Source: Archivesica marissinica (Eukaryota; Mollusca; Bivalvia; Venerida; Vesicomyidae). From it: a stretch of DNA of 64,000 nt. Numbering within the stretch: position 1 is the stretch's first letter; every line of letters begins with the position of its first letter. The notes under the pieces were generated by a model. It worked only from the letters and a program-made list of their open reading frames with translations. It was not told where the DNA came from and searched no databases. Position numbers and translations under genes: made by a program. Positions 3,546 through 62,540 of this stretch are shown one piece after another. Location of the stretch: NCBI GenBank assembly GCA_014843695.1, contig CM026387.1:82138598-82202597 (forward strand), in the 5' to 3' direction.

Positions 3546-6500
3546 TGTGTTGTACATACTGGTATAGGGTATGGATTTCACATACATAGGTTGTGTTGTA
3601 CATACTGGTATAGGGTATGGATTGCACATACATAGGTTGTGTTGTACATACTGGTATAGGGTATGGATTGCACATACATAGGTTGTGTTGTACATACTGG
3701 TATAGGGTATGGATTTCACATACATAGGTTGTGTTGTACATATTGGTATAGGGTATGGATATCACATACATATGTTGTGTTGTACATACTGGTATAGGGT
3801 ATGGATTTCACATACATAGGTTGTGTTGTACATACTGGTATATGGTATGGATTGCACATACATAGGTTGTGTTGTACATACTGGTATAGGGTATGGATTG
3901 CACATACATAGGTTGTGTTGTACATACTGGTATAGGGTATGGATTCACATACATAGGTTGTGTGTTGTACATACTGGTATAGGTATGGATTGCACATACA
4001 TAGTTGTGTTGTACATACTGTGTATAGGGTATGGTTGCACATACATAGGTTGTGTTGTACATACTGGTATAGGTATGGATTGCACATACATAGGTTGTGT
4101 TGTACATACTTGGTATATGGTATGGATTGCACATACATAGGTTGTGTTGTACATACTGGTATAGGGTATGGATATCACATACATAGGTTGTGTTGTACAT
4201 ACTGGTATAGGGTATGGATTGCACATACATAGGTTGTGTTGTACATAGTGGTATAGTGTATGGATTGCACATACATAGGTTGTGTTGTACATATTGTTAT
4301 AGGGTATGGATTGCACATACATAGGTTGTGTTGTACATATTGGTATAGGGAATGGATTGCACATACATAGGTTGTGTTGTACATATTGGTATAGGGTATG
4401 GATTGCACATACATAGGTTGTGTTGTACATATTGGTATAGGGTATGGATTGCACATACATAGGTTGTGTTGTACATATTGGTATATGGTATGGATTTCAC
4501 ATACATAGGTTGTGTTGTACATACTGGTATAGGGCATGGATTGCACATACATAGGTTGTGTTGTACATACTGGTAAAGGGTATGGATTGCACATACATAG
4601 GTTTTGTTGTACATACTGGTATAGGGCATGGATTTCACATACATAGGTTGTGTTGTACATACTGGTATAGGGTATGGATATCACATACATAGGTTGTGTT
4701 GTACATATTGGTATAGGGTATGGATTGCACATACATAGGTTGTGTTGTACATACTGGTATAGGGTATGGATTGCACATACATAGGTTGTATTGTACATAC
4801 TGGTATAGGGTATGGATATCACATACATAGGTTGTGTTGTACATATTGGTATAGGGTATGGATTGCACATACATAGGTTGTGTTGTACATACTGGTATAG
4901 GGTATGGATTGCACATACATAGGTTGTGTTGTACATATTGGTATAGGGTATGGATTGCACATACATAGGTTGTGTTGTACATATTGGTATAGGGTATGGA
5001 TATCACATATCGTAGGTTGTTTTGTACATACTAGTATAGGGAATGGATTGCACATACATAGGTTGTGTTGTACATACTGGTATAGGGTATGGATATCACA
5101 TACATAGGTTGTGTTGTGCATACTGGTATATGGTATGGATATCACATACATAGGTTGTGTTGTACATACTGGTATAGGGTATGGATATCACATACATAGG
5201 TTGTGTTGTACATACTGGTATAGGGTATGGATATCACATACATAGGTTGTGTTGTACATACTGGTATAGGGTATGGATATCACATACATAGGTTGTGTTG
5301 TACATACTTGTATAGGGTATGGATTGCACATACATAGTTGTGTTGTACATACTGGTATAGGGTATGGATATCACATACATAGGTTGTGTTGTACATACTG
5401 GTATAGGGTATGGATTGCACATACATAGGTTGTGTTGTACATACTGGTATAGGGTATGGATTCACATACATAGGTTGTGTTGTACATACTGGTATAGGTA
5501 TGGATATCACATACGTTGGTTGTGTTGTACATACTGGTATAGGATGGATTCACATACATAGGTTTGTTTGTACATACTGGTATAGGGTATGGATATCACA
5601 TACATAGGTTGTGTTGTACATATGGTATAGGGTATGGATTGCACATACATAGAGTGTGTTGTACATATTGGTATAGGGTATGGATTGCACATACATAGTT
5701 GTGTTGTACATACTGGTATAGGGTATGGATATCACATACGTATATTGTGTTGTACATACTGGTATAGGGTATGGATTGCACATACATAGGTTGTGTTGTA
5801 CATACTGGTACATTTCACATACGTAGGTTGTGTTGTACATACTGGTACATTTCACATACGTAGGTTGTGTTGTACATATTGGTATAGGGTATGGATATCA
5901 CATACATAGGTTGTGTCGTACATACTGGTATAGGGTATGGATTGCACATACATAGGTTGTGTTGTACATACTGGTATAGGGTATGGATTGCACATACACA
6001 GGTTGTGTTGTACATACTGGTATAGGGTATGGATTGCACATACATAGGTTGTGTTGTACATACTGGTATAGGGTATGGATTTCACATACATAGGTTGTGT
6101 TGTACATACTGGTATAGGGTATGGATTCCACATACATAGTTTGTGTTGTACATACTGGTATAGGGTATGGATTGCACATACATAGGTTGTGTTGTACATA
6201 CTGGTATAGGGTATGGATTGCACATACATAGGTTGTGTTGTACATACTGGTATAGGATATGGATTGCACATACATAGGTTGTGTTGTACATACTGGTATA
6301 GGGTATGGATATCACATACATAGGTTGTGTTGTACATATTGGTATATGGTATGGATTGCACATACATAGGTTGTGTTGTACATATTGGTATATGGTATGG
6401 ATTGCACATACATAGGTTGTGTTGTACATACTGGTATAGGGTATGGATTGCACATACATAGGTTGTTTTGTACATACTGGTATAGGTTATGGATCACATA

Positions 6501-9500
6501 CATAGTTGTGTTGTACATACTGGTATAGGGTATGGATTGCACATACATAGGTTGTGTTGTACATACTGGTATAGGGTATGGATTCACATACATAGTTGTG
6601 TTGTACATACTGGTATAGGGTATGGATTGCACATACATAGGTTGTGTTGTACATACTGGTATATGGTATGGATTGCACATACATAGGTTGTGTTGTACAT
6701 ACTGGTATAGGGTATGGATATCACATACATAGGTTGTGTTGTACATATTGGTATAGGGTATGTATTGCACATACATATGTTGTGTTGTACATACTGGTAT
6801 AGGGTATGGATATCACATACATAGGTTGTGTTGTACATACTGGTATAGGGTATGGATTGCACATACATAGGTTGTGTTGTACATACTGGTATAGGGTATG
6901 GATTGCACATACATAGGTTGTGTTGTACATACTGGTATAGGGTATGGATTCACATACATAGTTGTGTTGTACATACTGGTATAGGGTATGGATTGCACAT
7001 ACATAGGTTGTGTTGTACATACTGGTATAGGGTATGGATTGCACATACATAGGTTGTGTTGTACATACTGGTATAGGGTATGGATTGCACATACATAGGT
7101 TGTGTTGTACATACTGGTATAGGGTATGGATTGCACATACATAGGTTGTGTTGTACATATTGGTATATGGTATGGATTGCACATACATAGGTTGTGTTGT
7201 ACATACTGGTATAGGGTATGGATATCACATACATAGGTTGTGTTGTACATACTGGTATATGGTATGGATTGCACATACATAGGTTGTGTTGTACATAGTG
7301 GTATAGGGTATGTTATTGCACATACATAGGTTGTGTTGTACATATTGGTATAAGGTATGGATTGCACATACATAGGTTGTGTTGTACATATTGGTATAGG
7401 GAATGGATTGCACATACATAGGTTGTGTTGTACAAATTGGTATAGGGTATGGATTGCACATACATAGGTTGTGTTTTACATATTGGTATAGGGTATGGAT
7501 TGCACATACATAGGTTGTGTTGTACATATTGGTATATGGTATGGATTTCACATACATAGGTTGTGTTGTACATACTGGTATAGGGCATGGATTGCACATA
7601 CATAGGTTGTGTTGTACATACTGGTATAGGGTATGGATTGCACATACATAGGTTATGTTGTATATACTGGTATAGGGTATGGATATCACATACGTTGGTT
7701 GTGTTGTACATACTGGTATAGGGTATGGATATCACATACGCATATTGTGTTGTACATACTGGTATAGGGTATGGATTGCACATAAATAGGTTGTGTTGTA
7801 CATACTGGTACATTTCACATACGTAGGTTGTGTTGTACATACTGGTACATGTCACATACGTAGGTTGTGTTGTACATACTGGTATAGGGTATGGATATCA
7901 CATACATAGGTTGTGTTGTACATACTGGTATAGGGTATGGATTGCACATACATAGGTTGTGTTGTACATACTGGTATAGGGTATGGATTGCACATACATA
8001 GGTTGTGTTGTACATATTGGTATAGGGTATGGATTGCACATACATAGGTTGTGTTGTACATATTGGTATAGGGTATGGATTGCACATACATAGGTTGTGT
8101 TGTACATACTGGTATAGGGCATGGATTGCACATACGTAGGTTGTGTTGTACATACTGGTATAGGGTATGGATTCCACATATATTGGTTGTGTTGTACATA
8201 CTGGTACATTTCACATACATAGGTTGTGTTGTACATATTAGTATAGGGTATGGATTGCACATACATAGGTTGTGTTGTACACACTGGTATAGGGTATGGA
8301 TATCACATACATTGGTTGTGTTGTACACACTAGTATAGGGTATGGATATCACATACATTGGTTGTGTTGTACATACTGGTATAGGGTATGGATATCACAT
8401 ACATTGGTTGTGTTGTACATACTGGTATAGGGTATGGATATCACATACATAGGTTGTGTTGTACATACTGGTATAGGGTATGGATTGCACATACATAGGT
8501 TGTGTTGTACATACTGGTATAGGGTATGGATTTCACATACATAGGTTGTGTTGTACATACTGGTATAGGGTATGGATTCCACATACATAGGTTGTGTTGT
8601 ACATACTGGTATAGGGTATGGATATCACGTACATAGGTTATGTTGTACATATTGGTATATGGTATGGATTGCACATACATAGGTTGTGTTGTACATATTG
8701 GTATATGGTATGGATTGTACATACATAGGTTGTGTTGTACATATTGGTATAGGGTATGGATTGCAAATACATATATTGTGTTGTACATATTGGTATAGGG
8801 TATGGATTGCACATACATATGTTGTGTTGTACATACTGGTATAGGGTATGGATATCACATACATAGGTTGTGTTGTACATACTGGTATAGGGTATGGATT
8901 GCACATACATAGGTTGTGTTGTACATACTGGTATAGGGTATGGATATCACATACATAGGTTGTGTTGTACATATTGGTATATGGTATGGATTACACATAC
9001 ATAGGTTGTGTTGTACATATTGGTATATGGTATGGATTGCACATACATAGGTTTTGTTGTAAATATTGGTATAGGGTATGGATTGCACATACATAGGTTG
9101 GGTTGTACATATTGGTATAGGGTATGGATTGCACATACATATGTTGTGTTGTACATACTGGTATAGGGTATGGATATCACATACATAAGTTGTGTTGTAC
9201 ATACTGGTATAGGGTATGGATATCACATACTTTGTTGTGTTGTACATACTGGTATAGGGTATGGATTGCACATACATAGGTTGTGTTGTACATACTGGTA
9301 TAGGGTATGGATTGCACATACATGGTTGTGTTGTACATTGGTATAGGGTATGGATTGCACATACATAGGTTGTGTTGTACATACTGGTATAGGGTATGGA
9401 TATCACATAAATAGGTTGTGTTGTACATACTGGTATAGGGTATGGATTGCACATACATAGGTTGTGTTGTACATATTGGTATAGGGTATGGATTGCACAT

Positions 9501-11168
9501 ACATAGGTTGTGTTGTACATACTGGTATAGGGTATGGATTGCACATACATAGGTTGTGTTGTACATACTGGTATAGGTTATGGATATCACATACATAGGT
9601 TGTGTTGTACATATTGGTATAGGGTATGGATTGCACATACATAGGTTGTGTTTTACATACTGGTATAGGGTATGGATATCACATACGTAGGTTGTTTTGT
9701 ACATACTAGTATAGGGTATGGATTGCACATACATAGGTTGTGTTGTACATACTGGTATAGGGTATGGATATCACATACATAGGTTGTGTTGTACATACTG
9801 GTATAGGGTATGGATATCACATACATAGGTTGTGTTGTACATACTGGTATAGGGTATGGATATCACATACATATGTTGTGTTGTACATACTGGTATAGGG
9901 TATGGATTTCACATACATAGGTTGTGTTGTACATACTGGTATAGGGTATGGATTGCACATACATAGGTTGTGTTGTACATACTGGTATAGGGTATGGATT
10001 TCACATACATAGGTTGTGTTGTATATACTGGTATTGGGTATGGATATCACATACGTTGGTTGTGTTGTACATACTGGTATAGGGTATGGATTGCACATAC
10101 ATAGGTTGTGTTGTACATACTGGTATAGGGTATGGATTGCACATACATATGTTGTGTTGTACATATTGGTATAGGGTATGGATATCACATACATAGGTTG
10201 TGTTGTACATACTGGTATAGGGTATGGATTGCACATACATAGGTTGTGTTGTACATACTGGTATAGGGTATGGATATCACATACATAGGTTGTGTTGTAC
10301 ATATTGGTATATGGTATGGATTGCACATACATAGAGTGTGTTGTACATATTGGTATAGGGTATGGATTGCACATACATAGGTTGTGTTGTACATATTGGT
10401 ATAGGGTATGGATTGCACATACATAGGTTGTGTTGTACATACTGGTATAGGGTATGGATATCACATACATAGGTTGTGTTGTACATACTGGTATAGGGTG
10501 TGGATATCACATACATAGGTTGTGTTGTACATACTGGTATAGGGTATGGATATCACATACATAGGTTGTGTTTTATATACTGGTATAGGGTATGGATTGC
10601 ACATACATAGGTTGTGTTGTACATACTGGTATAGGGTATGGATATCACATACATAGGTTGTGTTGTACATACTGGTATAGGGTATGGATTTCACATACAT
10701 AGGTTGTGTTGTATATACTGGTATAGGGTATGGATATCATATACGTTGGTTGTGTTGTACATACTGGTATAGAGTATGGATTGCACATACATAGGTTGTG
10801 TTGTACATACTGGTATAGGGTATGGATTGCACATACATTGGTTGTGTTGTACATATTGGTATAGGGTATGGATTGCACATACATTGGTTGTGTTGTACAT
10901 ATTGGTATAGGGTATGGATTGCACATACATAGGAGGTTGTGTTGTACATACTGGTATAGGGTATGGATTGCACATACATAGGTTGTGTTGTACATACTGG
11001 TATAGGGTATGGATTGCACATACATAGGTTGTGTTGTACATACTGGTATAGGGTATGGATTGCACATACATAGGTTGTGTTGTACATACTGGTATAGGGT
11101 ATGGATTGCACATACATAGGTTGTGTTGTACATACTGGTATAGGGTATGGATTGCACATACATAGGTT
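3546..11168 (-). repeat. 46-bp satellite, about 165 copies, carrying an exon-6-type end and splice donor
   Basis: On the minus strand each unit reads AATCCATACCCTATACC, then AGTATGTACAACACAACC, then TATGTATGTGC. This corresponds to the last 17 bases of exon 6 of the ACOT/BAAT genes (encoding N-P-x-P-x-P) plus a GTATGT donor and intron start. It is a sister family of the 47-bp array at 12.7-17.1 kb, which lies directly downstream of exon 6 of gene A. Many units have AT instead of GT at the donor. A short variant lacking the 'tagggtatgga' segment appears at 5806-5866, 7795-7860 and 8200-8225. Blocks with shared variants (4240-4690 and 7290-7720) show multi-kb duplications inside the array. Long frames here exist only because the unit lacks stops. 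Confidence 0.9.
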
Positions 11169-12524: not shown

Positions 12525-12716
12525 TGTTTATTTATCGTCGCTACCGGTTGCCTATATGAGCTACTCCTCCTGAAGAGATTAGTCACTTTAGAGTTTGGAG
12601 GATAGTGCAATGATACAGACAGAGACCCATTCCAGAGTGTCATTAAAGAACCATCTGAATGACTGTTAATATGTGGTCACAGTCCAACATGTTAACCACT
12701 AGACCAATGACCCATC
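12525..12716 (-). mobile_element. tRNA-derived SINE, family 1, decayed
   Basis: Begins with the reverse-complemented SINE tail (gtttatttatcgtcgctacc), then the conserved 'gaagagattagtcactttag' and 'ggaggatagtgcaatgatac' core and the degenerate tRNA head. Confidence 0.8.
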
Positions 12717-12759
12717 TGATTAAGTTGTGTTGTACTTACTGGTACAGGGTGTGGATTTT

Positions 12760-13455
12760 AACATAGATAGAGAGATAGATAGTTTATTTTTCAAATTCAA
12801 TAAGCCAGAGGCCCATGAGAACATACAACAAACATAAACATATATATTATACAGTATACAGTGACGCAACAAGATGACAATAACACAGTGACAATGCATA
12901 CAATCAATGGCAGAAATATTTATAACTCTCATGAACAGTGTACTCAAACCGTAATGCTCATAGTTTCATACAACACCCAAAATATGCATAGTCATGCGGA
13001 GAAGGTGTTAACTATACAAAAATCAATTCAAGTATTAATTCGGTGGTGCATTGCATAATAATATATAGATTTAGAATAGGTACTTTAAATTATTTCATTA
13101 AACCTTTACATCAGCATGTACAATGTGTAAAATGTATAAGCACTACTTATGTAGCTCGGGCCTTAAACAAAACAGTTTCAGCAATTCATATGCAATGTAC
13201 TGATTGACTTTAACTGAAATGTATAGGCATCTATGCATAGTCATGACAAGTGTATATTGTAACTGTAATATGGTCATACATAAATAATAATTTAAAGACG
13301 TAATGGCATATATATATTGATTCAAGATGCATGCAATATTGTACAAAATAGCACATAATTATATAATAATTTGCACTCAGATGAAACATAATAATTAGTC
13401 AGCATATCAATTCTGACCGTAACTCAAAAGCTTTATAAATGAATACACTTAGTTT
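12760..13455 (-). mobile_element. insertion interrupting the 47-bp array, probably a non-LTR element end
   Basis: A satellite unit at 12720-12760 and the array resuming at 13456 bracket about 695 bp of other sequence. On the minus strand it ends AAAAATAAACTATCTATC, then more TATC units, like the 3' end of a non-LTR retrotransposon with a short-repeat tail. 'acata' lies on both sides and could be the target duplication. No coding part was recognised. Confidence 0.45.
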
Positions 13456-14159
13456 CTACATATGTAGGTTGTGTTGTACTTATTGGTACAGGGTGTGGAT
13501 TTTAACATATGTAGGTTGTGTTGTACTTACTGGTACAGGGTGTGGATTTTAACATATGTAGGTTGTGTTGTACTTACTGGTACAGGGTGTGGATTTTAAC
13601 ATATTTAGGTTGTGTTGTACTTACTGGTACAGGGTGTGGATTTTAACATATGTAGGTTGTGTTGTACTTACTGGTACAGGGTGTGGATTTTAACATATGG
13701 AGGTTGTGTTGTACTTACTGGTACAGGATGTGGATTTTAACATACGTAGGTTGTGTTGTACTTACTGGTACAGGGTGTGGATTTTAACATACTTACGTTG
13801 TGTTGTACTTACTGGTACAGGGTGTGGATTTTAACATATTTAGGTTGTGTTGTACTTACTGGTACAGGGTGTGGATTTTAACATATGTAGGTTGTGTTGT
13901 ACATACTGGTACAGGGTGTGGATTTAAACATATTAGGTTGGTTGTACTTATTGGTACAGGGTGTGGATTTTAACATATTTAGGTGGTGTTGTACTTACTG
14001 GTACAGGGTGTGGATTTTAACATATGTAGGTTGTGTTGTACTTACTGGTACAGGGTGTGGATTTTAACATATGTAGGTTGTGTTGTACTTATTGGTACAG
14101 GGTGTGGATTTTAACATATTTAGGTTGTGTTGTACTTATTGGTACAGGGTGTGGATTTT

Positions 14160-15159
14160 NNNNNNNNNNNNNNNNNNNNNNNNNNNNNNNNNNNNNNNNN
14201 NNNNNNNNNNNNNNNNNNNNNNNNNNNNNNNNNNNNNNNNNNNNNNNNNNNNNNNNNNNNNNNNNNNNNNNNNNNNNNNNNNNNNNNNNNNNNNNNNNNN
14301 NNNNNNNNNNNNNNNNNNNNNNNNNNNNNNNNNNNNNNNNNNNNNNNNNNNNNNNNNNNNNNNNNNNNNNNNNNNNNNNNNNNNNNNNNNNNNNNNNNNN
14401 NNNNNNNNNNNNNNNNNNNNNNNNNNNNNNNNNNNNNNNNNNNNNNNNNNNNNNNNNNNNNNNNNNNNNNNNNNNNNNNNNNNNNNNNNNNNNNNNNNNN
14501 NNNNNNNNNNNNNNNNNNNNNNNNNNNNNNNNNNNNNNNNNNNNNNNNNNNNNNNNNNNNNNNNNNNNNNNNNNNNNNNNNNNNNNNNNNNNNNNNNNNN
14601 NNNNNNNNNNNNNNNNNNNNNNNNNNNNNNNNNNNNNNNNNNNNNNNNNNNNNNNNNNNNNNNNNNNNNNNNNNNNNNNNNNNNNNNNNNNNNNNNNNNN
14701 NNNNNNNNNNNNNNNNNNNNNNNNNNNNNNNNNNNNNNNNNNNNNNNNNNNNNNNNNNNNNNNNNNNNNNNNNNNNNNNNNNNNNNNNNNNNNNNNNNNN
14801 NNNNNNNNNNNNNNNNNNNNNNNNNNNNNNNNNNNNNNNNNNNNNNNNNNNNNNNNNNNNNNNNNNNNNNNNNNNNNNNNNNNNNNNNNNNNNNNNNNNN
14901 NNNNNNNNNNNNNNNNNNNNNNNNNNNNNNNNNNNNNNNNNNNNNNNNNNNNNNNNNNNNNNNNNNNNNNNNNNNNNNNNNNNNNNNNNNNNNNNNNNNN
15001 NNNNNNNNNNNNNNNNNNNNNNNNNNNNNNNNNNNNNNNNNNNNNNNNNNNNNNNNNNNNNNNNNNNNNNNNNNNNNNNNNNNNNNNNNNNNNNNNNNNN
15101 NNNNNNNNNNNNNNNNNNNNNNNNNNNNNNNNNNNNNNNNNNNNNNNNNNNNNNNNNNN
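14160..15159. other. assembly gap of exactly 1000 N inside the 47-bp array
   Basis: Array units lie on both sides, so the gap is collapsed satellite of unknown length. Confidence 0.95.
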
Positions 15160-15463
15160 GGTACAGGGTGTGGATTTTAACATATTTAGGTTGTGTTGTA
15201 CTTATTGGTACAGGGTGTGGATTTTAACATATTTAGGTTGTGTTGTACTTACTGGTACAGGGTGTGGATGTTCACATACGTAGGTTGTGTTGTACATATT
15301 GGTACAGGGTGTGGATTTTAACATACGTAGGTTGTGTAGTACTTATTGGTACAGGGTGTGGATTTTAACATACGTAGGTTGTGTTGTACTTATTGGTACA
15401 GGGTGTGGATTTTAACATACGTAGGTTGTGTTGTACTTATTGGTACAGGGTGTGGATTTTAAC

Positions 15464-16400
15464 TAGGGATGTCAACGAATATGCGAATACTATTCCAGTA
15501 ATCGAATACTCGGGAAAAATATTATATTTGCAAAAATGAAATAAACTGTCATAAATCAGATACTTTATATTTGTTCGAAACCATCATAACACCTTCCAAT
15601 ACAAAGAAATCGCTCCAGGAGTTGGGAATAAATGATGTTGTGGTTGCATCCATGGCAGGTGTTAATAGACACACCATGTAATCGGATAAGTACAGTAGGT
15701 GTTAAGGTAGGTAGTGTTTAATTATGATGTCAAAACTGTTTAGACAGATAATGACATATTACAGACTGCAACAACATCTACCCACACGTACCTGTATCAT
15801 ACAATTTTAAATAACTTGTGGTTTTATTTGTGAAAACACCCATGAATGTATATCCTATTCAACCACTTTTCTTTATACTAATATCTTCTTCTCGTGCTCC
15901 AATTTTATATTTCACGTTCTTGAGCTTTCTTTAAATATTCCTTTAAATATTAACCATTTTCCTTTTAACATCCAAAACTATATTGACTCACTAATACAAT
16001 AACTCCTGAATTTTTTTTAGCATATACCTAGAATAGATTTCACGTGTATTCATTGTTATATATATTATTCTCCTGCCTTTTGTATATCAATCAATTGATA
16101 GGGAAAAGAACTATGCATGTTTTTTTCTTTCGTTCTAGTCCCTTTCAGTATACTGCTGTTAATTTATATGTAAAATGTTAGAATAAATAATGTTTAAACC
16201 AATGTACAGTGGCCGATAACAATAACTGAATGAGTGTTCGTCATATTTGCATGGCCTTACAGGAAGATGACGTTTACGCAATTTTATAAGAGTTTGAGTG
16301 ATTTTGAGTATTTGATAGAATTCTATCAAATATTCGAATATTCGAATACCTTCCCGACCGAATATTCGAATACCAAAATCACTATTCGTTGCCATCCCTA
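15464..16400. mobile_element. non-autonomous hAT element (937 bp) with 8-bp target duplication
   Basis: Begins TAGGGATGTCAACGAATA and ends TATTCGTTGCCATCCCTA, an 18-bp TIR with one mismatch. The 8-bp ATTTTAAC is present on both sides (15456-15463 and 16401-16408); this is the hallmark of hAT insertion. The target is part of the 47-bp unit, so it jumped into an already expanded array. No transposase frame is present. Confidence 0.93.
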
Positions 16401-17135
16401 ATTTTAACATATGTAGGTTGTGTTGTACTTATTGGTACAGGGTGTGGATTTTAACATATGTAGGTTGTGTTGTACTTACTGGTACAGGGTGTGGGTTTTA
16501 ACATATGTATGTTGTGTTGTACTTACTGGTACAGGGTGTGGATTTTAACATATGTAGGTTGTGTTGTACTTACTGGTACAGGGTGTGGATTTTAACATAT
16601 TTAGGTTGTGTTGTACTTACTGGTACAGGGTGTGGATTTTAACATATGTAGGTTGTGTTGTACTTATTGGTACAGGGTGTGGATTTTAACATATGTAGGT
16701 TGTGTTGTACTTATTGGTACAGGGTGTGGATTTTAACAGATGTATGTTGTGTTGTACTTACTGGTATAGGGTGTGGATTTTAACATACGTAGGTTGTGTT
16801 GTACTTATTGGTACAGGGTGTGGATTTTAACATATGGAGGTTGTGTTGTACTTATTGGTACAGGGTGTGGATTTTAACATATGGAGGTTGTGTTGTACTT
16901 ACTGGTACAGGGTGTGGATTTTAACATATTTAGGTTGTGTTGTACTTATTGGTACAGGGTGTGGATTTTAACATATGTAGGTTGTGTTGTACTTACTGGT
17001 ACAGGGTGTGGATTTTAACATACGTAGGTTGTGTTGTACTTATTTGTACAGGGTGTGGATTTTAACATATGTAGGTTGTGTTGTACTTACTGGTACAGGG
17101 TGTGGATATTAACATGTAGGTTATGTTGTACTTAC

Positions 17136-17220
17136 AGGTACAGGGTGTGGATTTTCACATTCATAAATATCAGTAATCACAATCCCTTCATCTGTGTTAA
17201 ACACATTCTCTTCTTTGGGC
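17136..17220 (-). CDS. gene A exon 6, ACOT/BAAT-family hydrolase
   Basis: An 85-bp exon between a 'tttatctag' acceptor and CCT|GTAAGTAC donor. The first G completes a Trp split with exon 5; then PKEENVFNTDEGIVITDIYE, C-E-N-P-H-P-V-P, ending in phase 0. Its counterpart in gene B is the same length and 16 of 28 residues look identical. In the family this is the linker between the nucleophile region and the strand bearing the catalytic Asp. Its last 18 bases are the seed of the satellite that follows. Confidence 0.88.
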
Positions 17221-18911: not shown

Positions 18912-19746
18912 GCATAGAGTGATGTATAAATGCATTCTCACCATGCTTCTGTAGTGGGTTTAATGCCTCTTATAGAGTGATATATAATGCATTCTTACCA
19001 TGCTTCTGTAGTGGGTTTAATGCCTCTTATAGGTGATGTATAAATGCATTCTCACCATGCTTCTGTAGTGGGTTTAATGCCTCTTATAGAGTGATATATA
19101 AATGCATTCTTACCATGCTTCTGTAGTGGGTTTAATGCCTCTTATAGAGTGATATATAATGCATTCTTACCATGCTTCTGTAGTGGGTTTAATGCCTCTT
19201 ATAGGTGATGTATAAATGCATTCTCACCATGCTTCTGTAGTGGGTTTAATGCCTCTTATAGAGTGATATATAAATGCATTCTTGCCATGCTTCTGTAGTG
19301 GGTTTAATGCCTCTTATAGAGTGATATATAAATGCATTCTTACCATGCTTCTGTAGTGGGTTTAATGCCTCTTATAGAGTGATATATAATGCATTCTTAC
19401 CATACTTCTGTAGTGGGTTTAATGCCTCTTATATAGTGATGTATAAATGCATTCTTACCATGCTTCTGTAGTGGGCTTAACGCCTCTTATAGAGTGATAT
19501 ATAAATGCATTCTCACCATGCTTCTGTAGTGGGCTTAATGCCTCTTATAGAGTGATATATAAATGCATTCTTACCATGCTTCTGTAGTGGGTTTAATGCC
19601 TCTTATAGAGTGATGTATAAATGCATTCTTACCATACTTCTGTAGTGGGTTTAATGCCTCTTATAGAGTGATATATAATGCATTCTTACCATACTTCTGT
19701 AGTGGGTTTAATGCCTCTTATAGAGTGATATATAATGCATTCTTAC
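18912..19746 (-). repeat. 58-bp minisatellite made of exon 5 (gene A) 3' end plus splice donor, about 15 copies
   Basis: Begins at the exon 5 donor. On the minus strand the unit reads ATAAGAGGCATTAAACCCAC, TACAGAAGCATG, then GTAAGAATGCATTTATATAT. The first 32 bases equal the last 32 bases of exon 5, with one recurrent A/G-type change. Donor versions are GTAAGA and GTGAGA, with one GCAAGA near 19283. The exon end has thus been duplicated about fifteen times into its own downstream intron. Confidence 0.93.
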
Positions 19747-19841
19747 CATACTTCTGTAGTGGGTTTAATGCCTCTTATAGGTGATGTTGTTGATGCTACA
19801 GGTGTGAATGTAATCCCGTTTATATTGACAACAGCTCGAAT
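19747..19841 (-). CDS. gene A exon 5, ACOT/BAAT-family hydrolase
   Basis: A 95-bp exon from a 'tattgctttgcag' acceptor to ATG|GTAAGAAT. It encodes IRAVVNINGITFTPVASTTS then PIRGIKPTTEV and two bases of a split Trp. 'AVVNING' is the strand after the nucleophile helix in the family (A-x-V-x-ING). It is six codons longer than exon 5 of gene B, and the extra part (PIRGIKPTTE) is the segment amplified in the array. Confidence 0.87.
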
Positions 19842-24374: not shown

Positions 24375-24488
24375 CTGAGGTAATACAGATGTAAGAGCCA
24401 GTGACAGAAAGCCACCAAAGCACAGACCAACAGCACCGAGCCTGCGTGCATCTATGTAATCTTGACCAATAAACCATTCATAGGCATC
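24375..24488 (-). CDS. gene A exon 4, nucleophile exon of the ACOT/BAAT-family hydrolase
   Basis: A 114-bp, phase 0-0 exon with 'tttgttaag' acceptor and CTCAG|GTAAGA donor. It encodes DAYEWFIGQDYIDARRLGAV then GLCFGGFLSLALTSVLPQ. G-L-C-F-G-G is the nucleophile elbow, with Cys at about residue 270 of the gene A protein. BAAT uses Cys here and the ACOT thioesterases Ser; bacterial-type dienelactone hydrolases also have GxCxGG. So an acyltransferase-like or hydrolase activity on acyl-CoA is possible, but substrate cannot be read from sequence. Confidence 0.92.
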
Positions 24489-27525: not shown

Positions 27526-27695
27526 CTTTATATAATTAAAATCGGCGTCTAAGATCTGGTCGGGAAGTCCATGCGCATGTAGGTACGAGAGTGCCATTGT
27601 TGCATACCCGTGTGATGCCAGTAACGCTGCCCGAGTCTCAATAAGACTGACTACACCTCCGTACATGTCAACCAAGCCTGGGAATGGACCATCAC
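27526..27695 (-). CDS. gene A exon 3, ACOT/BAAT-family hydrolase
   Basis: A 170-bp exon. The first two bases finish a Gly split with exon 2: [20 protein letters not shown], then [20 protein letters not shown] and AHGLPDQILDADFNYIK. This matches the family block GPFPG-x-DMFGG...RA-x-LLA-x-HG-x-A-x-LAY at the start of the hydrolase domain. The donor reads AAAG|GTTTTG. The gene C copy has AAAG|GTATGT, so four bases are missing here and the donor is weak. Confidence 0.9.
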
Positions 27696-27884
27696 CTACA
27701 GACAAAGCAAATAATACGATATAGGATAAATAAACCACACATGAGATAAAGGCAAACATCATAATCATGCAAGCATTTTGTATGTTATTTCACAAGCATA
27801 TTATTACATGTCTACGTCAGACCTGCTCCTTCCATGCAGACAGAAGCACCTGTATCCACACAAACCTGTCCCATCCATACAGGT
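27696..27884. other. intron sequence shared with 298-486
   Basis: Part of the duplicated segment; no exon. Confidence 0.6.
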
Positions 27885-29795
27885 GGGTGATAGCTTACCG
27901 TTTGTGAACCTTCGTCTACACAGGTGTCTGATAGCTTACAGTTTGTGAACTTTCGTCTACACAGGTGGCTGATAGCTTACAGTTTGTGAACTTTCGTCTC
28001 CACAGGTGGCTAATAGCTTACAGTTTGTGAACCTTCGTCTCCACAGGTGGCTGATAGCTTACAGTTTGTGAACCTTTGTCTCCACAGGTGGCTGATAGCT
28101 TACAGTTTGTGAACCTTCGTCTCCACAGGTGGCTGATAGCTTACAGTTTGTGAACCTTCGTCTCCACAGGTTAGTGATTAGCTTACAGTTTCTGAACCTT
28201 CGTCTCCACAGGTTAGTGATTAGCTTACAGTTTCTGAACCTTCGTCTCCACAGGTTAGTGATTAGCTTACAGTTTCTGAACCTTTGTCTCCACAGGTAGG
28301 TGATTAGCTTACAGTTTCTGAACCTTCATCTCCACAGGTAGGTTATTAGCTTACAGTTTCTGAACCTTCATCTCCACAGGTAGGTGATTAGCTTACAGTT
28401 TCTGAACATTCGTCTCCACAGGTTAGTGATTAGCTTACAGTTTCTGAACCTTCGTCTCCACAGGTTAGTGATTAGCTTACAGTTTCTGAACCTTTGTCTC
28501 CACAGGTAGGTGATTAGCTTACAGTTTCTGAACCTTCATCTCCACAGGTAGGTTATTAGCTTACAGTTTCTGAACCTTCATCTCCACAGGTAGGTGATTA
28601 GCTTACAGTTTCTGAACATTCGTCTCCACAGGTTAGTGATTAGCTTACAGTTTCTGAACCTTCGTCTCCACAGGTTAGTGATTAGCTTACAGTTTCTGAA
28701 CCTTTGTCTCCACAGGTAGGTGATTAGCTTACAGTTTCTGAACCTTCATCTCCACAGGTAGGTGATTAGCTTACAGTTTCTGAACCTTCGTCTCCACAGG
28801 TAGGTGATTAGCTTACAATCTCTGAACCTTTGTCTCCACAGGTAGGTGATTAGCTTACAATTTATGAACCTTTGTCTCCACAGGTTAGTGATTAGCTTAC
28901 AGTTTCTGAACCTTTGTCTCCACAGGTTAGTGATTAGCTTACAGTTTCTGAACCTTTGTCTCCACAGGTAGGTGATTAGCTTACAGTTTCTGAACCTTCA
29001 TCTCCACAGGTAGGTGATTAGCTTACAGTTTGTGAACCTTCGTCTCCACAGGTGGCTGATAGCTTACAGTTTGTGAACCTTTGTCTCCACAGGTGGCTGA
29101 TAGCTTACAGTTTGTGAACCTTCGTCTCCACAGGTGGCTGATAGCTTACAGTTTGTGAACCTTCGTCTACACAGGTTAGTGATTAGCTTACAGTTTCTGA
29201 ACCTTCGTCTCCACAGGTTAGTGATTAGCTTACAGTTTCTGAACCTTCGTCTCCACAGGTTAGTGATTAGCTTACAGTTTCTGAACCTTTGTCTCCACAG
29301 GTAGGTGATTAGCTTACAGTTTCTGAACCTTCATCTCCACAGGTAGGTGATTAGCTTACAGTTTCTGAACCTTCGTCTCCACAGGTAGGTGATTAGCTTA
29401 CAATTTCTGAACCTTTGTCTCCACAGGTAGGTGATTAGCTTACAATTTATGAACCTTTGTCTCCACAGGTTAGTGATTAGCTTACAGTTTCTGAACCTTC
29501 GTCTCCACAGGTTAGTGATTAGCTTACAGTTTCTGAACCTTTGTCTCCACAGGTAGGTGATTAGCTTACAGTTTCTGAACCTTCATCTCCACAGGTAGGT
29601 GATTAGCTTACAGTTTCTGAACCTTCGTCTCCACAGGTAGGTGATTAGCTTACAATTTCTGAACCTTTGTCTCCACAGGTAGGTGATTAGCTTACAATTT
29701 ATGAACCTTTGTCTCCACAGGTAGGTGATTAGCTTACAATTTCTGAACCTTCGTCTCCACAGGTAGGTGATTAGCTTACAGTTTCTGTACCTTTG
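27885..29795. repeat. 41-43-bp minisatellite, about 45 copies
   Basis: Two main unit types: 'gtggctgatagcttacagtt' plus 'tgtgaaccttcgtctccacag', and 'gtaggtgattagcttacagt' plus 'ttctgaacc'. Types occur in blocks repeated about every 210 bp at 28400-28800, a higher-order pattern. In intron 2 of gene A. Diverged single copies at 31140-31230 look like the old array edge. Confidence 0.93.
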
Positions 29796-31639: not shown

Positions 31640-31885
31640 CTTCCGGAAGAAATATGGTACCCTTGAAGCGTCCAGTCAGTGGTATTCTCCTAACCCCGGG
31701 TTTCAGGTATAATCTTTGAACCTTGGTCTCTGTTAAAGGCTCATTAGGTGGGACTGTTTCGAAATGTATACCAGAGTAAACCTTTATATCGAAACTCATA
31801 GGTTTTCCAACGTCTTTCTTAACGAGCAGGGACGATTGCCCAGAACAACATTTCAGACTCCAAAATAGCCCCATTGGTTCTATCC
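31640..31885 (-). CDS. gene A exon 2, N-terminal domain of the ACOT/BAAT family
   Basis: A 246-bp exon with 'atcgtag' acceptor and GAAG|GTAATA donor, phases 1 and 1. It begins GIEPMGLFWSLKCCSG, continues with a 'KPGVRRIPLTGRFKGTIFLP' segment and ends in P-E-G. 'EPMGLLW', 'PGVRR' and 'GTLFLPPG' are landmarks of the N-terminal Bile_Hydr_Trans domain (PF04775 from memory). Confidence 0.93.
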
Positions 31886-33730: not shown

Positions 33731-34069
33731 CTTTAAAACTACCAGCTATGGATGCATCTGACATGCTATCCATTCTACCGTGGACATCGGCTTCATAAAC
33801 ACATCTGGACTCGAACTTTATTCCATTCTCCTCTACACTTGCAACCAGTGTCACTTTTTCTTTGGAATTCAATCCATGGACTTTAATCTTGATCTTTTCA
33901 TCAACCATTCCAACAGAAGGAGTCACGGTAATGCTCGGTGGATGCCCGTGATGTGTCACGGTGTTTGAGCATGGTTTTGTGCATATATTTAAATGTCTAT
34001 TCAGGACTGTGATACGACGCATCATGATAGATGAACATTTCTGACCCAACTGCATTGTCACGTCATTCT
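33731..34069 (-). CDS. gene A exon 1 (first coding exon), ACOT/BAAT-family N-terminal domain
   Basis: The exon lies between a 'tttattgtag' acceptor and AAAG|GTATGG donor. The first in-frame ATG is at 34055, giving MQLGQKCSSIMMRRITVLNR. A second, MMRRITVLNR, starts at 34022. The Arg-rich, acid-free start could be a mitochondrial presequence (inference). Domain sequence begins at SITVTPSVGMVDEKIKIKVH and ends D-A-S-I-A-G-S-F-K, matching the family's 'ITVTPS-x-x-x-x-D' start and 'D-P-x-L-G-G-S-F-x-G' end. Coding part 325 nt. Confidence 0.88.
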
Positions 34070-51148: not shown

Positions 51149-51258
51149 TCACCTAATAGTTTTTACATTTTCATTGAGAAAGGTTAAGATTTTTGCCCAA
51201 GAATCTTCCTGGGCATATGCGTGTTCTCTAGGCCAGCCACCTGTCATCATGTCTTCAT
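51149..51258 (-). CDS. gene B exon 8 (last exon), C-terminal helix of the ACOT/BAAT family
   Basis: After a 'cgtgtttcag' acceptor the exon encodes (D)EDMMTGGWPREHAYAQEDSW, AKILTFLNENVKTIR and a TGA stop. 'GG-x-P-x-x-H-A-x-AQEDAW-x-x-I' is the terminal helix of the BAAT_C domain. Phase 1 entry fits exon 7. The protein ends T-I-R, so no peroxisomal SKL-type signal is present. No AATAAA was seen before the 41-bp satellite begins, about 140 bp downstream. Confidence 0.92.
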
Positions 51259-51760
51259 CTGAAACACGAGATACAAACAGTTCTAATAACTTTAAGAATC
51301 TTGTAAATACCCATTCATGCTCATGCATGTTCAACCTCGTGTATTTGTTGTTCCCTGCTGTGTATTGTCTATATAGCATATTACTTATATGTACAATCCA
51401 TGTAATGTTATATTGTAAATAGTATCTTAAAAAAACAAATGTTGTCATGTTGATAACTTATATGTTAATATATTTGATCATGTAGCTAGAAACAGTGTAT
51501 GTTTATATTGCTTCTTGAATCTAATATATATCTATGTTTTTAACCCATGGCATTAGAAACGAAAACATGTCAAGTCCAAACCAATCTATGCTATTTGGTC
51601 ATATTTCTTTTGCACATCAGAAAGTAATAAGGGCCTACTTACATGAGTAATACAAGGTACAAGATCAATATTCACAAAATAAATTTTACACAACTCTGTT
51701 TACAGAACAAAAAATGTCCAGTCACATAAAATTAAACCAGTTTTACACCATTTATCCTAT
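51259..51760. other. intron 7 of gene B, non-repetitive part
   Basis: No exon or TE recognised. The plus-strand frame at 51087-51422 is antisense to exon 8. Confidence 0.55.
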
Positions 51761-54100: not shown

Positions 54101-57100
54101 GGTTATACTTCGTGATACACATATAATATAACTTACATGTACTGGGTTATATGGCTACACATATAATATAACTTACAGGTACTGGGTTATATGGATACAC
54201 ATATAATATAACTTACATGTACTGGGTTATATGGCTACACATATAATATAACCTACAGGTGCTGGTCATGGGTTATATGGCTACACATATAATATAACCT
54301 ACAGGTACTGGTCATGGGTTATATGGCTACACATATAATATAACCTACAGGTACTGGTCATGGGTTATATGGCTACACATATAATATAACCTACAGGTGC
54401 TGGTCATGGGTTATATGGCTCCACATATAATATAACTTACAGGTGCTGGGTTATATGGCTACACATATAATATAACCTACAGGTACTGGTCATGGGTTAT
54501 ATGGCTACACATATAATATAACCTACAGGTACTGGTCATTGGTTATATGGCTACACATATAATATAACTTACAGGTACTGGTCATGGGTTATATGGCTAC
54601 ACATATAATATAACCTACAGGTGCTGGTCATGGGTTATATGGCTCCACATATAATATAACTTACAGGTGCTGGGTTATATGGCTACACATATAATATAAC
54701 CTACAGGTACTGGTCATGGGTTATATGGCTACACATATAATATAACCTACAGGTACTGGTCATTGGTTATATGGCTACACATATAATATAACTTACAGGT
54801 ACTGGTCATGGGTTATATGGCTACACATATAATATAACCTACAGGTGCTGGTCATGGGTTATATGGCTCCACATATAATATAACTTACAGGTGCTGGGTT
54901 ATATGGCTACACATATAATATAACTTACAGGTACTGGTCATGGGTTATATGGCTACACATATAATATAACATACAGGTGCTGGGTTATATGGCTACACAT
55001 ATAATATAACTTACAGGTGCTGGTCATGGGTTATATGGCTACACATATAATATAACATACAGGTGCTGGTCATGGGTTATATGGCTACACATATAATATA
55101 ACATACAGGTGCTGGTCATGGGTTATATGGCTACACATATAATATAACATACAGGTGCTGGGTTATATGGCTACACATATAATATAACATACAGGTGCTG
55201 GCCATGGGTTATATGGCTACACATATAATATAACATACAGGTGCTGGTCATGGGTTATATGGCTACACATATAATATAACATACAGGTGCTGGGTTATAT
55301 GGCTACACATATAATATAACTTACAGGTGCTGGTCATGGGTTATATGGCTACACATATAATATAACCTACAGGTGCTGGTCATGGGTTATATGGCTACAC
55401 ATATAATATAACTTACAGGTGCTGGTCATTGGTTATATGGCTACACATATAATATAACTTACAGGTGCTGGTCATTGGTTATATGGCTACACATATAATA
55501 TAACGTACAGGTGCTGGTCATTGGTTATATGGCTACACATATAATATAACGTACAGGTGCTGGTCATGGGTTATATGGCTACACATATAATATAACTTAC
55601 AGGTGCTGGGTTATATGGCTACACATATAATATAACTTACAGGTACTGGGTTATATGGCTACACATATAATATAACGTACAGGTACTGGCCATGGGTTAT
55701 ATGGCTACACATATAATATAACTTACAGGTACTGGGTTATATGGCTACACATATAATATAACATACAGGTGCTGGGTTATATGGCTACACATATAATATA
55801 ACTTACAGGTACTGGGTTATATGGCTACACATATAATATAACATACAGGTGCTGGGTTATATGGCTACACATATAATATAACTTACAGGTGCTGGGTTAT
55901 ATGGCTACACATATAATATAACTTACAGGTACTGGGTTATATGGCTACACATATAATATAACGTACAGGTGCTGGGTTATATGGCTACACATATAATATA
56001 ACGTACAGGTGCTGGGTTATATGGCTACACATATAATATAACGTACAGGTACTGGTCATGGGTTATATGGCTACACATATAATATAACTTACAGGTACTG
56101 GTCATGGGTTATATGGCTACACATATAATATAACATACAGGTGCTGGGTTATATGGCTACACATATAATATAACATACAGGTGCTGGTCATGGGTTATAT
56201 GGCTACACATATAATATAACTTACAGGTACTGGTCATGGGTTATATGGCTACACATATAATATAACCTACAGGTACTGGTCATGGGTTATATGGCTACAC
56301 ATATAATATAACGTACAGGTGCTGGTCATGGGTTATATGGCTACACATATAATATAACTTACAGGTACTGGTCATGGGTTATATGGCTACACATATAATA
56401 TAACTTACAGGTGCTGGTCATGGGTTATATGGCTACACATATAATATAACGTACAGGTGCTGGTCATTAGTTATATGGCTACACATATAATATAACGTAC
56501 AGGTACTGGCCATGGGTTATATGGCTACACATATAATGTAACATACAGGTACTGGCCATGGGTTATATGGCTACACATATAATATAACTTACAGGTGCTG
56601 GGTTATATGGCTACACATATAATATAACTTACAGGTGCTGGTCATGGGTTATATGGCTACACATATAATATAATTTACAGGTGCTGGTCATGGGTTATAT
56701 GGCTACACATATAATATAACCTACAGGTAATGGTCATGGGTTATATGGCTACACATATAATATAACTTACAGGTGCTGGTCATGGGTTATATGGCTACAC
56801 ATATAATATAACTTACAGGTGCTGGCCATGGGTTATATGGCTACACATATAATATAATTTACAGGTGCTGGTCATGGGTTATATGGCTACACATATAATA
56901 TAACTTACAGGTGCTGGGTTATATGGCTACACATATAATATAACTTACAGGTAATGGTCATGGGTTATATGGCTACACATATAATATAATTTACAGGTGC
57001 TGGTCATGGGTTATATGGCTACACATATAATATAACCTACAGGTAATGGTCATGGGTTATATGGCTACACATATAATATAATTTACAGGTGCTGGTCATG

Positions 57101-57314
57101 GGTTATATGGCTACACATATAATATAACTTACAGGTGCTGGTCATGGGTTATATGGCTACACATATAATATAACTTACAGGTGCTGGCCATGGGTTATAT
57201 GGCTACACATATAATATAATTTACAGGTGCTGGTCATGGGTTATATGGCTACACATATAATATAACTTACAGGTGCTGGCCATGGGTTATATGGCTCACA
57301 TAAATAGTACTTAC
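54101..57314 (-). repeat. 40/46-bp satellite grown from the exon 6 donor of gene B, about 72 copies
   Basis: Begins at the donor of exon 6 of gene B. On the minus strand the unit is CATGACCAGCACCTGTAAGT plus TATATTATATGTGTAGCCAT plus ATAACC; the 40-bp form lacks 'catgac'. The exon-intron junction itself reads CCGTGTCCTATACCT|GTAAGT, then ACTATTTATGTGAGCCATAT. Donors vary at +4 (GTAAGT, GTAGGT, GTATGT, GTACGT), but no unit without GT was noticed. Units are unlike those after exon 6 of gene A. Confidence 0.88.
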
Positions 57315-57399
57315 AGGTATAGGACACGGATTATCACAGTCAAACACCTCATTGATGACCAAACCTTCCTCTGTATTGAACACCTTATCTGCTCTTGGC
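57315..57399 (-). CDS. gene B exon 6, ACOT/BAAT-family hydrolase
   Basis: An 85-bp exon with 'tctatccag' acceptor and CCT|GTAAGTAC donor. It encodes (W)PRADKVFNTEEGLVINEVF then DCDNPCPIP. Same length and phases (2 in, 0 out) as exon 6 of gene A. Its last bases resemble the first part of the satellite unit that follows. Confidence 0.9.
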
Positions 57400-62035: not shown

Positions 62036-62040
62036 CTGTT

Positions 62041-62540
62041 ATAAATATAACGTATGTACAATTATAAACATAACATATGTACAATTATAAACATAACGTA
62101 TGAACAATTATAAACATAACATATGTACAATTATAAACATAACGTATGAACAATTATAAACATAACGTATGAACAATTATAAACATAACGTATGTACAAT
62201 TATAAATATAACGTATGTACAATTATAAACATAACGTATGTACAATTATAAATATAACGTATGTACAATTATAAATATAACGTATGTACAATTATAAACA
62301 TAACGTATGTACAATTATAAACATAACGTATGTACAATTATAAACATAACGTATGTACAATTATAAACATAACGTATGTACAATTATAAACATAACGTAT
62401 GTACAATTATAAACATAACGTATGTACAATTATAAACATAACGTATGTACAATTATAAACATAACGTATGTACAATTATAAACATAATGTATGTACAATT
62501 ATAAACATAACGTATGTACAATTATAAACATAACGTACAC
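62041..62540 (-). repeat. 23-bp minisatellite abutting the exon 4 acceptor of gene B, about 21 copies
   Basis: On the minus strand the unit is TTATAATTGTACATACGTTA plus TGT, and the sequence next to the exon is CGTTATATTTATAACAG. The array runs to within 6 bp of the exon, so the branch-point and pyrimidine region is made of repeat sequence. Confidence 0.93.

Follow-up and report, generated by a model that had tools for sequence, protein, structure and literature searches.

How does a tandem satellite come to start exactly at a splice donor, with the end of the exon copied into its units, and what would become of splicing where it does? The question is raised by a 64,000-nt stretch of the Archivesica marissinica genome (the window, G000:C2:82138598-82202597, in an assembly of 1.54 Gb), whose minus strand carries BAAT/acyl-CoA thioesterase-like genes. 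In one of these, gene A, the donor of exon 6 is followed by an array of 47-bp units, here called A6. We consider it probable that A6 is a boundary-spanning minisatellite composed of exon end, donor and intron, of the type named "mirages" in lancelets, and that it is likely to have arisen by slippage or unequal exchange at the junction and to be tolerated through use of the first donor.

The 47-bp array at exon 6 of gene A

Exon 6, read on the minus strand, ends in AAAATCCACACCCTGTACCT, followed directly by GTAAGTACAAC (junction at 17136/17135), and the array begins at this point. The consensus unit, derived from 36 units, is TTAAAATCCACACCCTGTACCAGTAAGTACAACACAACCTACATATG; it comprises about the last 23 coding bases of exon 6, the donor, and about 24 intron bases. 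Exon 6 and the unit match at 23 of 24 positions when the bases compared end one before the donor, and at 22 of 24 when counted in register to the donor itself; none of 2000 dinucleotide shuffles reaches the score. A sequence-only reading of this DNA had placed the start of the array at the exon 6 donor and taken its seed to be visible there, and on both counts it was right. Its description of each unit as 17-18 coding bases, GTAAGT and about 26 intron bases holds for the exon part, which aligns far better than shuffled sequence and is even longer than proposed, but not for the donor, which is missing from a good many units.

Units were sought between positions 12700 and 17165 with a pattern allowing up to 4 substitutions. 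Among the 38 units found behind exon 6, 22 have GT, the real donor included, and 16 have an A at +1 and so read AT. Position +1 is the most variable of the 47, deviating in 42% of 36 units (the next most variable position, 25%). The first unit departs from the others in being 45 bp long and in having a CCT donor context. Since all five A-type copies of the gene have CCT at exon 6, and since the real donor is the one unit among the 38 to read CCT, exon 6 shows no sign of the kind of exon-array exchange described below for exon 5. Nor is A6 the single array from 12720 to 17220 that had been proposed: it is broken by a 1000-N gap and by a 937-bp insertion, which we take to be a hAT-like miniature inverted-repeat transposable element with ATTTTAAC as its target duplication, and about 0.7 kb of non-array sequence separates it from a lone unit near 12720. 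A 46-bp array still farther downstream looks like a diverged relative of A6 when the two consensus units are compared by reading; 121 of its 163 units have GT, 40 have AT and 2 have CT, and +1 ranks 3 of 46 in variability.

The 17-mer at the exon end, AATCCACACCCTGTACC, occurs 141 times in the assembly, always on the minus strand (reversed-pattern control, 0). A region of 264 kb around the gene cluster was read for gene copies and for the placement of such words. It holds, besides gene A, four partial copies (B, D, E and F, lying within exons 3-7) downstream of the window, and all 141 occurrences: five are the exons themselves and the others lie downstream of an exon-6 copy. Assigned to the nearest upstream exon 6, with the exon's own copy counted, they number 33 for A, 30 for B, 14 for D, 26 for E and 38 for F. 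Because the count in the genome equals that in the 264 kb, the 17-mer is private to this gene cluster.

Exons 1-6 of gene A, from 34055 to 17136, form a single open frame of 345 codons, with an AG acceptor ahead of each of exons 2-6 and GT behind all six; the product matches Pfam PF04775 (2.1e-34) and PF08840 (4.3e-9), and its closest relatives are clam proteins (Mercenaria mercenaria, 68%; Ruditapes, 63%). In an alignment of 23 relatives, the exon 6 end, N.WPVP or NPWPIP ahead of AWQHG, is common to Mercenaria P0001 (CDNPWPVP/AWQHG, the stroke marking the end), P0002 and P0006 and to Ruditapes P0003 (CENPWPIP/AWQHG). Most clam homologues join the exon 6 segment straight to exon 7; P0016 is without the segment. 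The genome also carries an intronless BAAT-like paralog (G000:C4:50485000-50486700), a 460-codon open frame 56% identical to gene A in which exons 5, 6 and 7 are joined without array-derived residues; it is likely to be a copy of spliced mRNA (retrocopy). The presence of the exon 6 end in several clam proteins suggests that it is older than the array.

Donor satellites at exon 5 and in gene C

Gene A has a second satellite, of 57/58-bp units, adjoining exon 5. The final 39 bases of that exon recur in the unit (38 of 39 aligned bases identical, plus one gap; 0 of 2000 shuffles reach the score). The five assembled copies, which are perhaps paralogs, haplotypes or assembly copies, contain 15, 14, 46, 14 and 51 units. 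With the exons counted, 139 of these 140 units keep GT and one has GC; in copy A the figure is 14 of 15. The part of exon 5 upstream of its last 41 nt was also compared as another degenerate unit, which found no support (750 of 2000 shuffles reach the score). For a 26-mer taken from the unit's exon part the genome gives 182 occurrences, every one minus-strand (control, 0), with 128 inside the 264 kb and 54 elsewhere. Two further exon-7 copies were seen about 7 Mb away, at G000:C2:89227425 and 89324043, and these are possibly the home of the remaining 54.

At exon 5 the exon and the array have variants in common. Exon 5 of copy A ends in GTATG and is followed by the 57-bp intron form, a linked pair found otherwise, among the 140 units, only in units 1 and 6 of its own array. 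The other four exon 5 copies all have GCATG with the 58-bp form; the T variant alone is frequent in array D (14 units) and array F (13 units). The T/C variant amounts to an Ala to Val change. Exon-array exchange, in either direction, appears the simplest account of these linked variants, and because exon and array share them, array turnover seems to reach coding sequence. One may go further and suppose a two-way traffic, in which an array grows from an exon end and then rewrites it: unequal exchange would move variants across the splice site, so that the exon 5 end (its Ala/Val codon, perhaps also an extension of six residues) and its donor would undergo concerted evolution with over 100 intronic copies. 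We put this forward tentatively, as a doubtful idea; if true, the satellite would be a reservoir of exon ends.

The order of events could also be reversed, the array coming first and donating exon end and donor, such that the last 39 nt or so of exon 5, and in principle the exon 6 end, would be captured satellite. Compared with gene C, Mercenaria P0001 and the intronless paralog, exon 5 indeed has six more residues in its tail, and copy A's exon carries the T and 57-bp pair of array units 1 and 6, in place of the C and 58-bp form of the other four exons. However, the length of this loop varies among clams anyway, and the array could have been seeded by the tail, as an exon end of old standing; at exon 6, capture is countered by the occurrence of the same end in several other clam proteins. 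We consider the array-first order unlikely.

The third satellite starts at the exon 6 donor of gene C, a paralog of gene A extending from 69036 to about 51155. All 72 matched units of this array (C6) keep GT. Its resemblance to the exon is weaker, 14 of 20 bases in register, the best of 321 other GTRAGT sites giving 13. A common origin of A6 and C6 was considered and is not supported: the C6 exon against the A6 unit is equalled by 1135 of 2000 shuffles, and the A6 exon against the C6 unit by 1251 of 2000. A comparison of the C6 exon with the 46-bp unit (28 of 2000 shuffles) gave the single hint of kinship.

Splicing and the frequency of array-donor contacts

Use of a later donor would be costly. 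Read-through past the real donor of exon 6 adds four codons (VSTT) and then TAA, an early in-frame stop that the sequence-only reading had pointed out; past the exon 5 donor a stop follows at once after a single W; in gene C the second exon 6 donor, which lies at +44, would put the reading out of frame, and donors beyond it run into a stop. Scored with a donor weight matrix, the real A6 donor reaches 7.2 and the intact donors of the array 7.4. Since the real donor scores no better than those of the array, a preference for the first donor would have to rest on position. Use of the first donor is plausible.

For the mirage-type reading we propose the following scenario. A founding duplication would have occurred by slippage across the exon-intron junction, where ATGT is present close to either end of the first repeat, at a spacing of 45 bp. 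The array would then have grown by unequal exchange, a process with which the differing exon 5 unit numbers among the copies are in keeping. Splicing would proceed at the first donor by exon definition, leaving the array near-neutral. On the donor side arrays could grow because the trio of acceptor, exon and first donor would stay unbroken; on the acceptor side, extra AGs would precede the real AG.

Alternatively, the array might be a selected cluster of binding sites for the U1 small nuclear ribonucleoprotein, for example shielding a long intron from premature polyadenylation. Tandem donors are certainly present, with 21 downstream GT units at A6, 72/72 at C6 and 139/140 at exon 5, counts in which intact units are favoured by matching patterns that include the donor. 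Against such a role, A6 has lost the donor in 16 of 38 units and varies most at +1, A6 and C6 have no detectable likeness in the exon-to-unit comparisons, and donor words are hardly enriched in tandem. Triples of AGGTAAGT spaced 24-54 bp apart number 19,805 genome-wide versus 16,874 for the reversed word (1.17-fold), although all 100 of the listed places fall within a single array on C1, so that both counts may be dominated by single arrays. For these reasons the U1 cluster raised by the earlier reading is without support here, and we hold it to be very improbable.

Donor words being only 1.17-fold over the reversed control, no general splicing function is indicated. Strong donors occur in 6 of 17 arrays from random loci (3.9 expected) and in 44 of 99 arrays of the 264 kb (26.0 expected), the latter not being independent of one another. 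With these counts and the slight enrichment, a general class of splice-donor satellites was not accepted. Selection to disable decoy donors by G to A change at +1 is likewise not claimed: the loss affects 0 of 72 units at C6 and 1 of 140 in the exon 5 arrays (a GC), and the two arrays in which it is common, A6 and the 46-bp array, are related.

How often should an array meet a donor by accident? With a tandem array defined as a repeat whose period is 10 or longer and which has 3 copies or more, ten random 5-kb loci have 25,740 of their 50,000 bases (51%) in arrays, nine of the ten containing some, and the span from gene A to gene C has 50%. This is an extreme tandem-repeat genome, with about half of the sampled DNA in arrays. 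At the locus, arrays occupy 54.8% of non-exon bases versus 70 of 2488 exon bases (2.8%), and the 70 exonic bases (41, 25 and 4) all lie at donor ends. When the 25 arrays were rotated against the exons, with 12 donors and 11 acceptors (the donor set lacks exon 7 of gene C, which ended at a stop in the gene model used), the number of donors spanned by 1-58 nt was 3 of 12 versus 0.29 expected (P = 0.0037), the limit of 58 nt, one unit, having been set after the arrays had been seen. With about half of the DNA in arrays, their coincidence with donors at this locus is no more than moderately unlikely. Pure coincidence of array and exon edges draws on that abundance, and the count is ordinary under loose overlap rules. 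Yet at exons 5 and 6 of gene A the unit copies the exon end, which is more than adjacency, and the excess at donors stands beside 0 of 11 acceptors (0.28 expected). We give mere coincidence very little credence.

An assembly artefact, with collapsed or stuttered repeats, would account for the N gap inside the array and for the near-identical copies downstream. In their collinear stretches, blocks B/D and E/F are 96.5-99.1% alike, and on this likeness they appear to be recent duplications or haplotypes assembled in tandem. However, one and the same exon-array junction recurs in five copies, gene C has a distinct junction, and the units bear ordered, differing variants, all of which make an artefact exceedingly improbable.

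Several observations weigh against the mirage-type reading itself. The exon 6 end differs in P0004, P0005 and P0007, and P0006, a Mercenaria gene model, carries an insert of 39 residues placed precisely where exons 6 and 7 join, which may be read-through at this donor in a relative or a faulty gene model. Relatives do not conserve the tail of exon 5, and there the array may therefore be older than the exon end. In a free local alignment of the C6 exon with its own unit, 1572 of 2000 shuffles reach the score, which is not significant. Donors and acceptors taken jointly give P = 0.020 in the rotation test, and the P value hangs on the overlap rule: 0.017 for 1-100 nt, 0.76 for 1-1000 nt, and 0.19 with a minimum overlap of 5 nt, at which only 2 arrays count. 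Given the 96.5-99.1% likeness of B/D and E/F, part of the locus may be misassembled. Finally, use of the first donor is a prediction from DNA sequence.

Table 1. Features at the locus, in window coordinates (TRF, Tandem Repeats Finder).
Feature	Position	Strand	Remarks
Diverged 46-bp array of the 47-bp family	3546..11168	-	CCA, GTATGT; 163 units matched
Lone 47-bp-family unit	12720..12767	-	744 bp (unit to unit) past array
47-bp donor satellite, distal segment	13458..14159	-	TRF 15.0 copies
Assembly gap, 1000 N	14160..15159	.	within array
47-bp donor satellite, middle segment	15160..15463	-	TRF 6.5 copies
Insertion, 937 bp	15464..16400	.	within repeat unit; inverted TAGGGATG...CATCCCTA ends; 8-bp duplication ATTTTAAC
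47-bp donor satellite, exon-proximal segment	16401..17160	-	TRF 16.2 copies; 25 nt inside exon 6
Predicted authentic exon 6 donor	17130..17135	-	CCT, GTAAGT; identical in copies A, B, D, E, F
Gene A exon 6 (BAAT-like)	17136..17220	-	AG, exon, GTAAGT; in frame with exons 1-5; homologous segment in clam proteins
Second donor satellite, 57/58 bp	18914..19787	-	exon 5 end + ATG, GTAAGA + intron; 15 units including exon's own
Gene A exon 5	19747..19841	-	last 39 nt repeated in adjoining 57/58-bp array
Gene A exon 4	24375..24488	-	open frame
Gene A exon 3	27526..27695	-	open frame
Gene A exon 2	31640..31885	-	open frame
Gene A exon 1	33731..34055	-	open frame; start codon assumed
Third donor satellite, 46/40-bp steps	54116..57318	-	from gene C exon 6 donor; 72 units matched
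Gene C exon 6 (paralog)	57315..57399	-	third array starts at its donor

Some details of the gene models may be added. Exon 5 of copies B, D, E and F each lacks one base near the exon start. Beyond exon 7 of gene C, protein matches point to a further exon, a likely exon 8, at about 51155-51376. Upstream of exon 3, copies B and A have arrays whose 41/42-bp units resemble each other (481-659 and 27879-29793), a likeness that is probably due to duplication. In gene C, a 23-bp array (62039-62537, minus strand) stops 3 nt short of the start of exon 4, filling the intron almost to the splice signal.

Relation to known systems

Serial donors created by a minisatellite at an exon's donor have a human parallel in the interferon-induced transcript IFI6/6-16 (G1P3), whose minisatellite with multiple splice donors is the subject of a 1995 paper in Nucleic Acids Research; the extra donors are reported to be used there and to add in-frame codons. 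The likeness lies in the serial arrangement of donors; the difference is that the sequence added here would bring a stop or a frame shift. In the Rogers model, as cited in PMC3087553, introns are gained by tandem duplication of proto-splice sites. Our arrays resemble it in being tandem duplications that contain a splice signal, but differ in that no new intron is seen and the donor side alone is copied. CeRep25B of C. elegans (PMC4039745) was considered as a comparison and is not relevant. Among the matches listed in the literature searched, no mollusc report of a boundary-spanning satellite was found.

The sequence-only reading knew of no named class for such repeats. One exists: "mirages", minisatellite-like duplications of intron-exon boundaries, are described in lancelet globin genes and earlier in Adh3, with reverse transcription PCR suggesting regular splicing (PMC3087553), and also in TnC and PGBD5 (PMC3902484). 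As in these amphioxus cases (Adh3, the globins BflGb6/9, TnC and PGBD5), the unit spans the exon-intron boundary (23/24 at A6, 38/39 plus a gap at exon 5, more weakly at C6), and many though not all units keep the splice signal (22/38 at A6, 121/163 in the 46-bp array, 14/15 at exon 5 of copy A; 72/72 at C6). On a further trait of mirages, the exclusion of edge units from homogenisation, the observations are mixed: the first unit of A6 differs (45 bp, CCT), and at exon 5 the exon shares array variants. Mirages are also unstable in length; the unit numbers at exon 5 range from 14 to 51 among the five assembled copies, which may be paralogs, haplotypes or assembly copies. As to undisturbed splicing, a clean exon 6/7 junction is seen in the predicted proteins of relatives, P0006 excepted, and in the intronless paralog.

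The locus offers a natural test of how the spliceosome chooses the first donor when many of equal strength follow it, and of whether the ends of coding exons can be rewritten by satellites in introns. In a genome with about half of its sampled DNA in tandem arrays, boundary events of this kind could be numerous enough for large counts. Mirages are thereby extended to bivalves' DNA, in this one species, and to arrays with tens of units, three of them in one gene pair. In conclusion, compared with the lancelet mirages, what is new is the bivalve host, the tens of units (versus 3 and 6 in the BflGb6 haplotypes), the occurrence at two consecutive exons of one gene and in a paralog, on the donor side only, and the signs of exon-array exchange, namely the linked variants common to exon and array in copy A.

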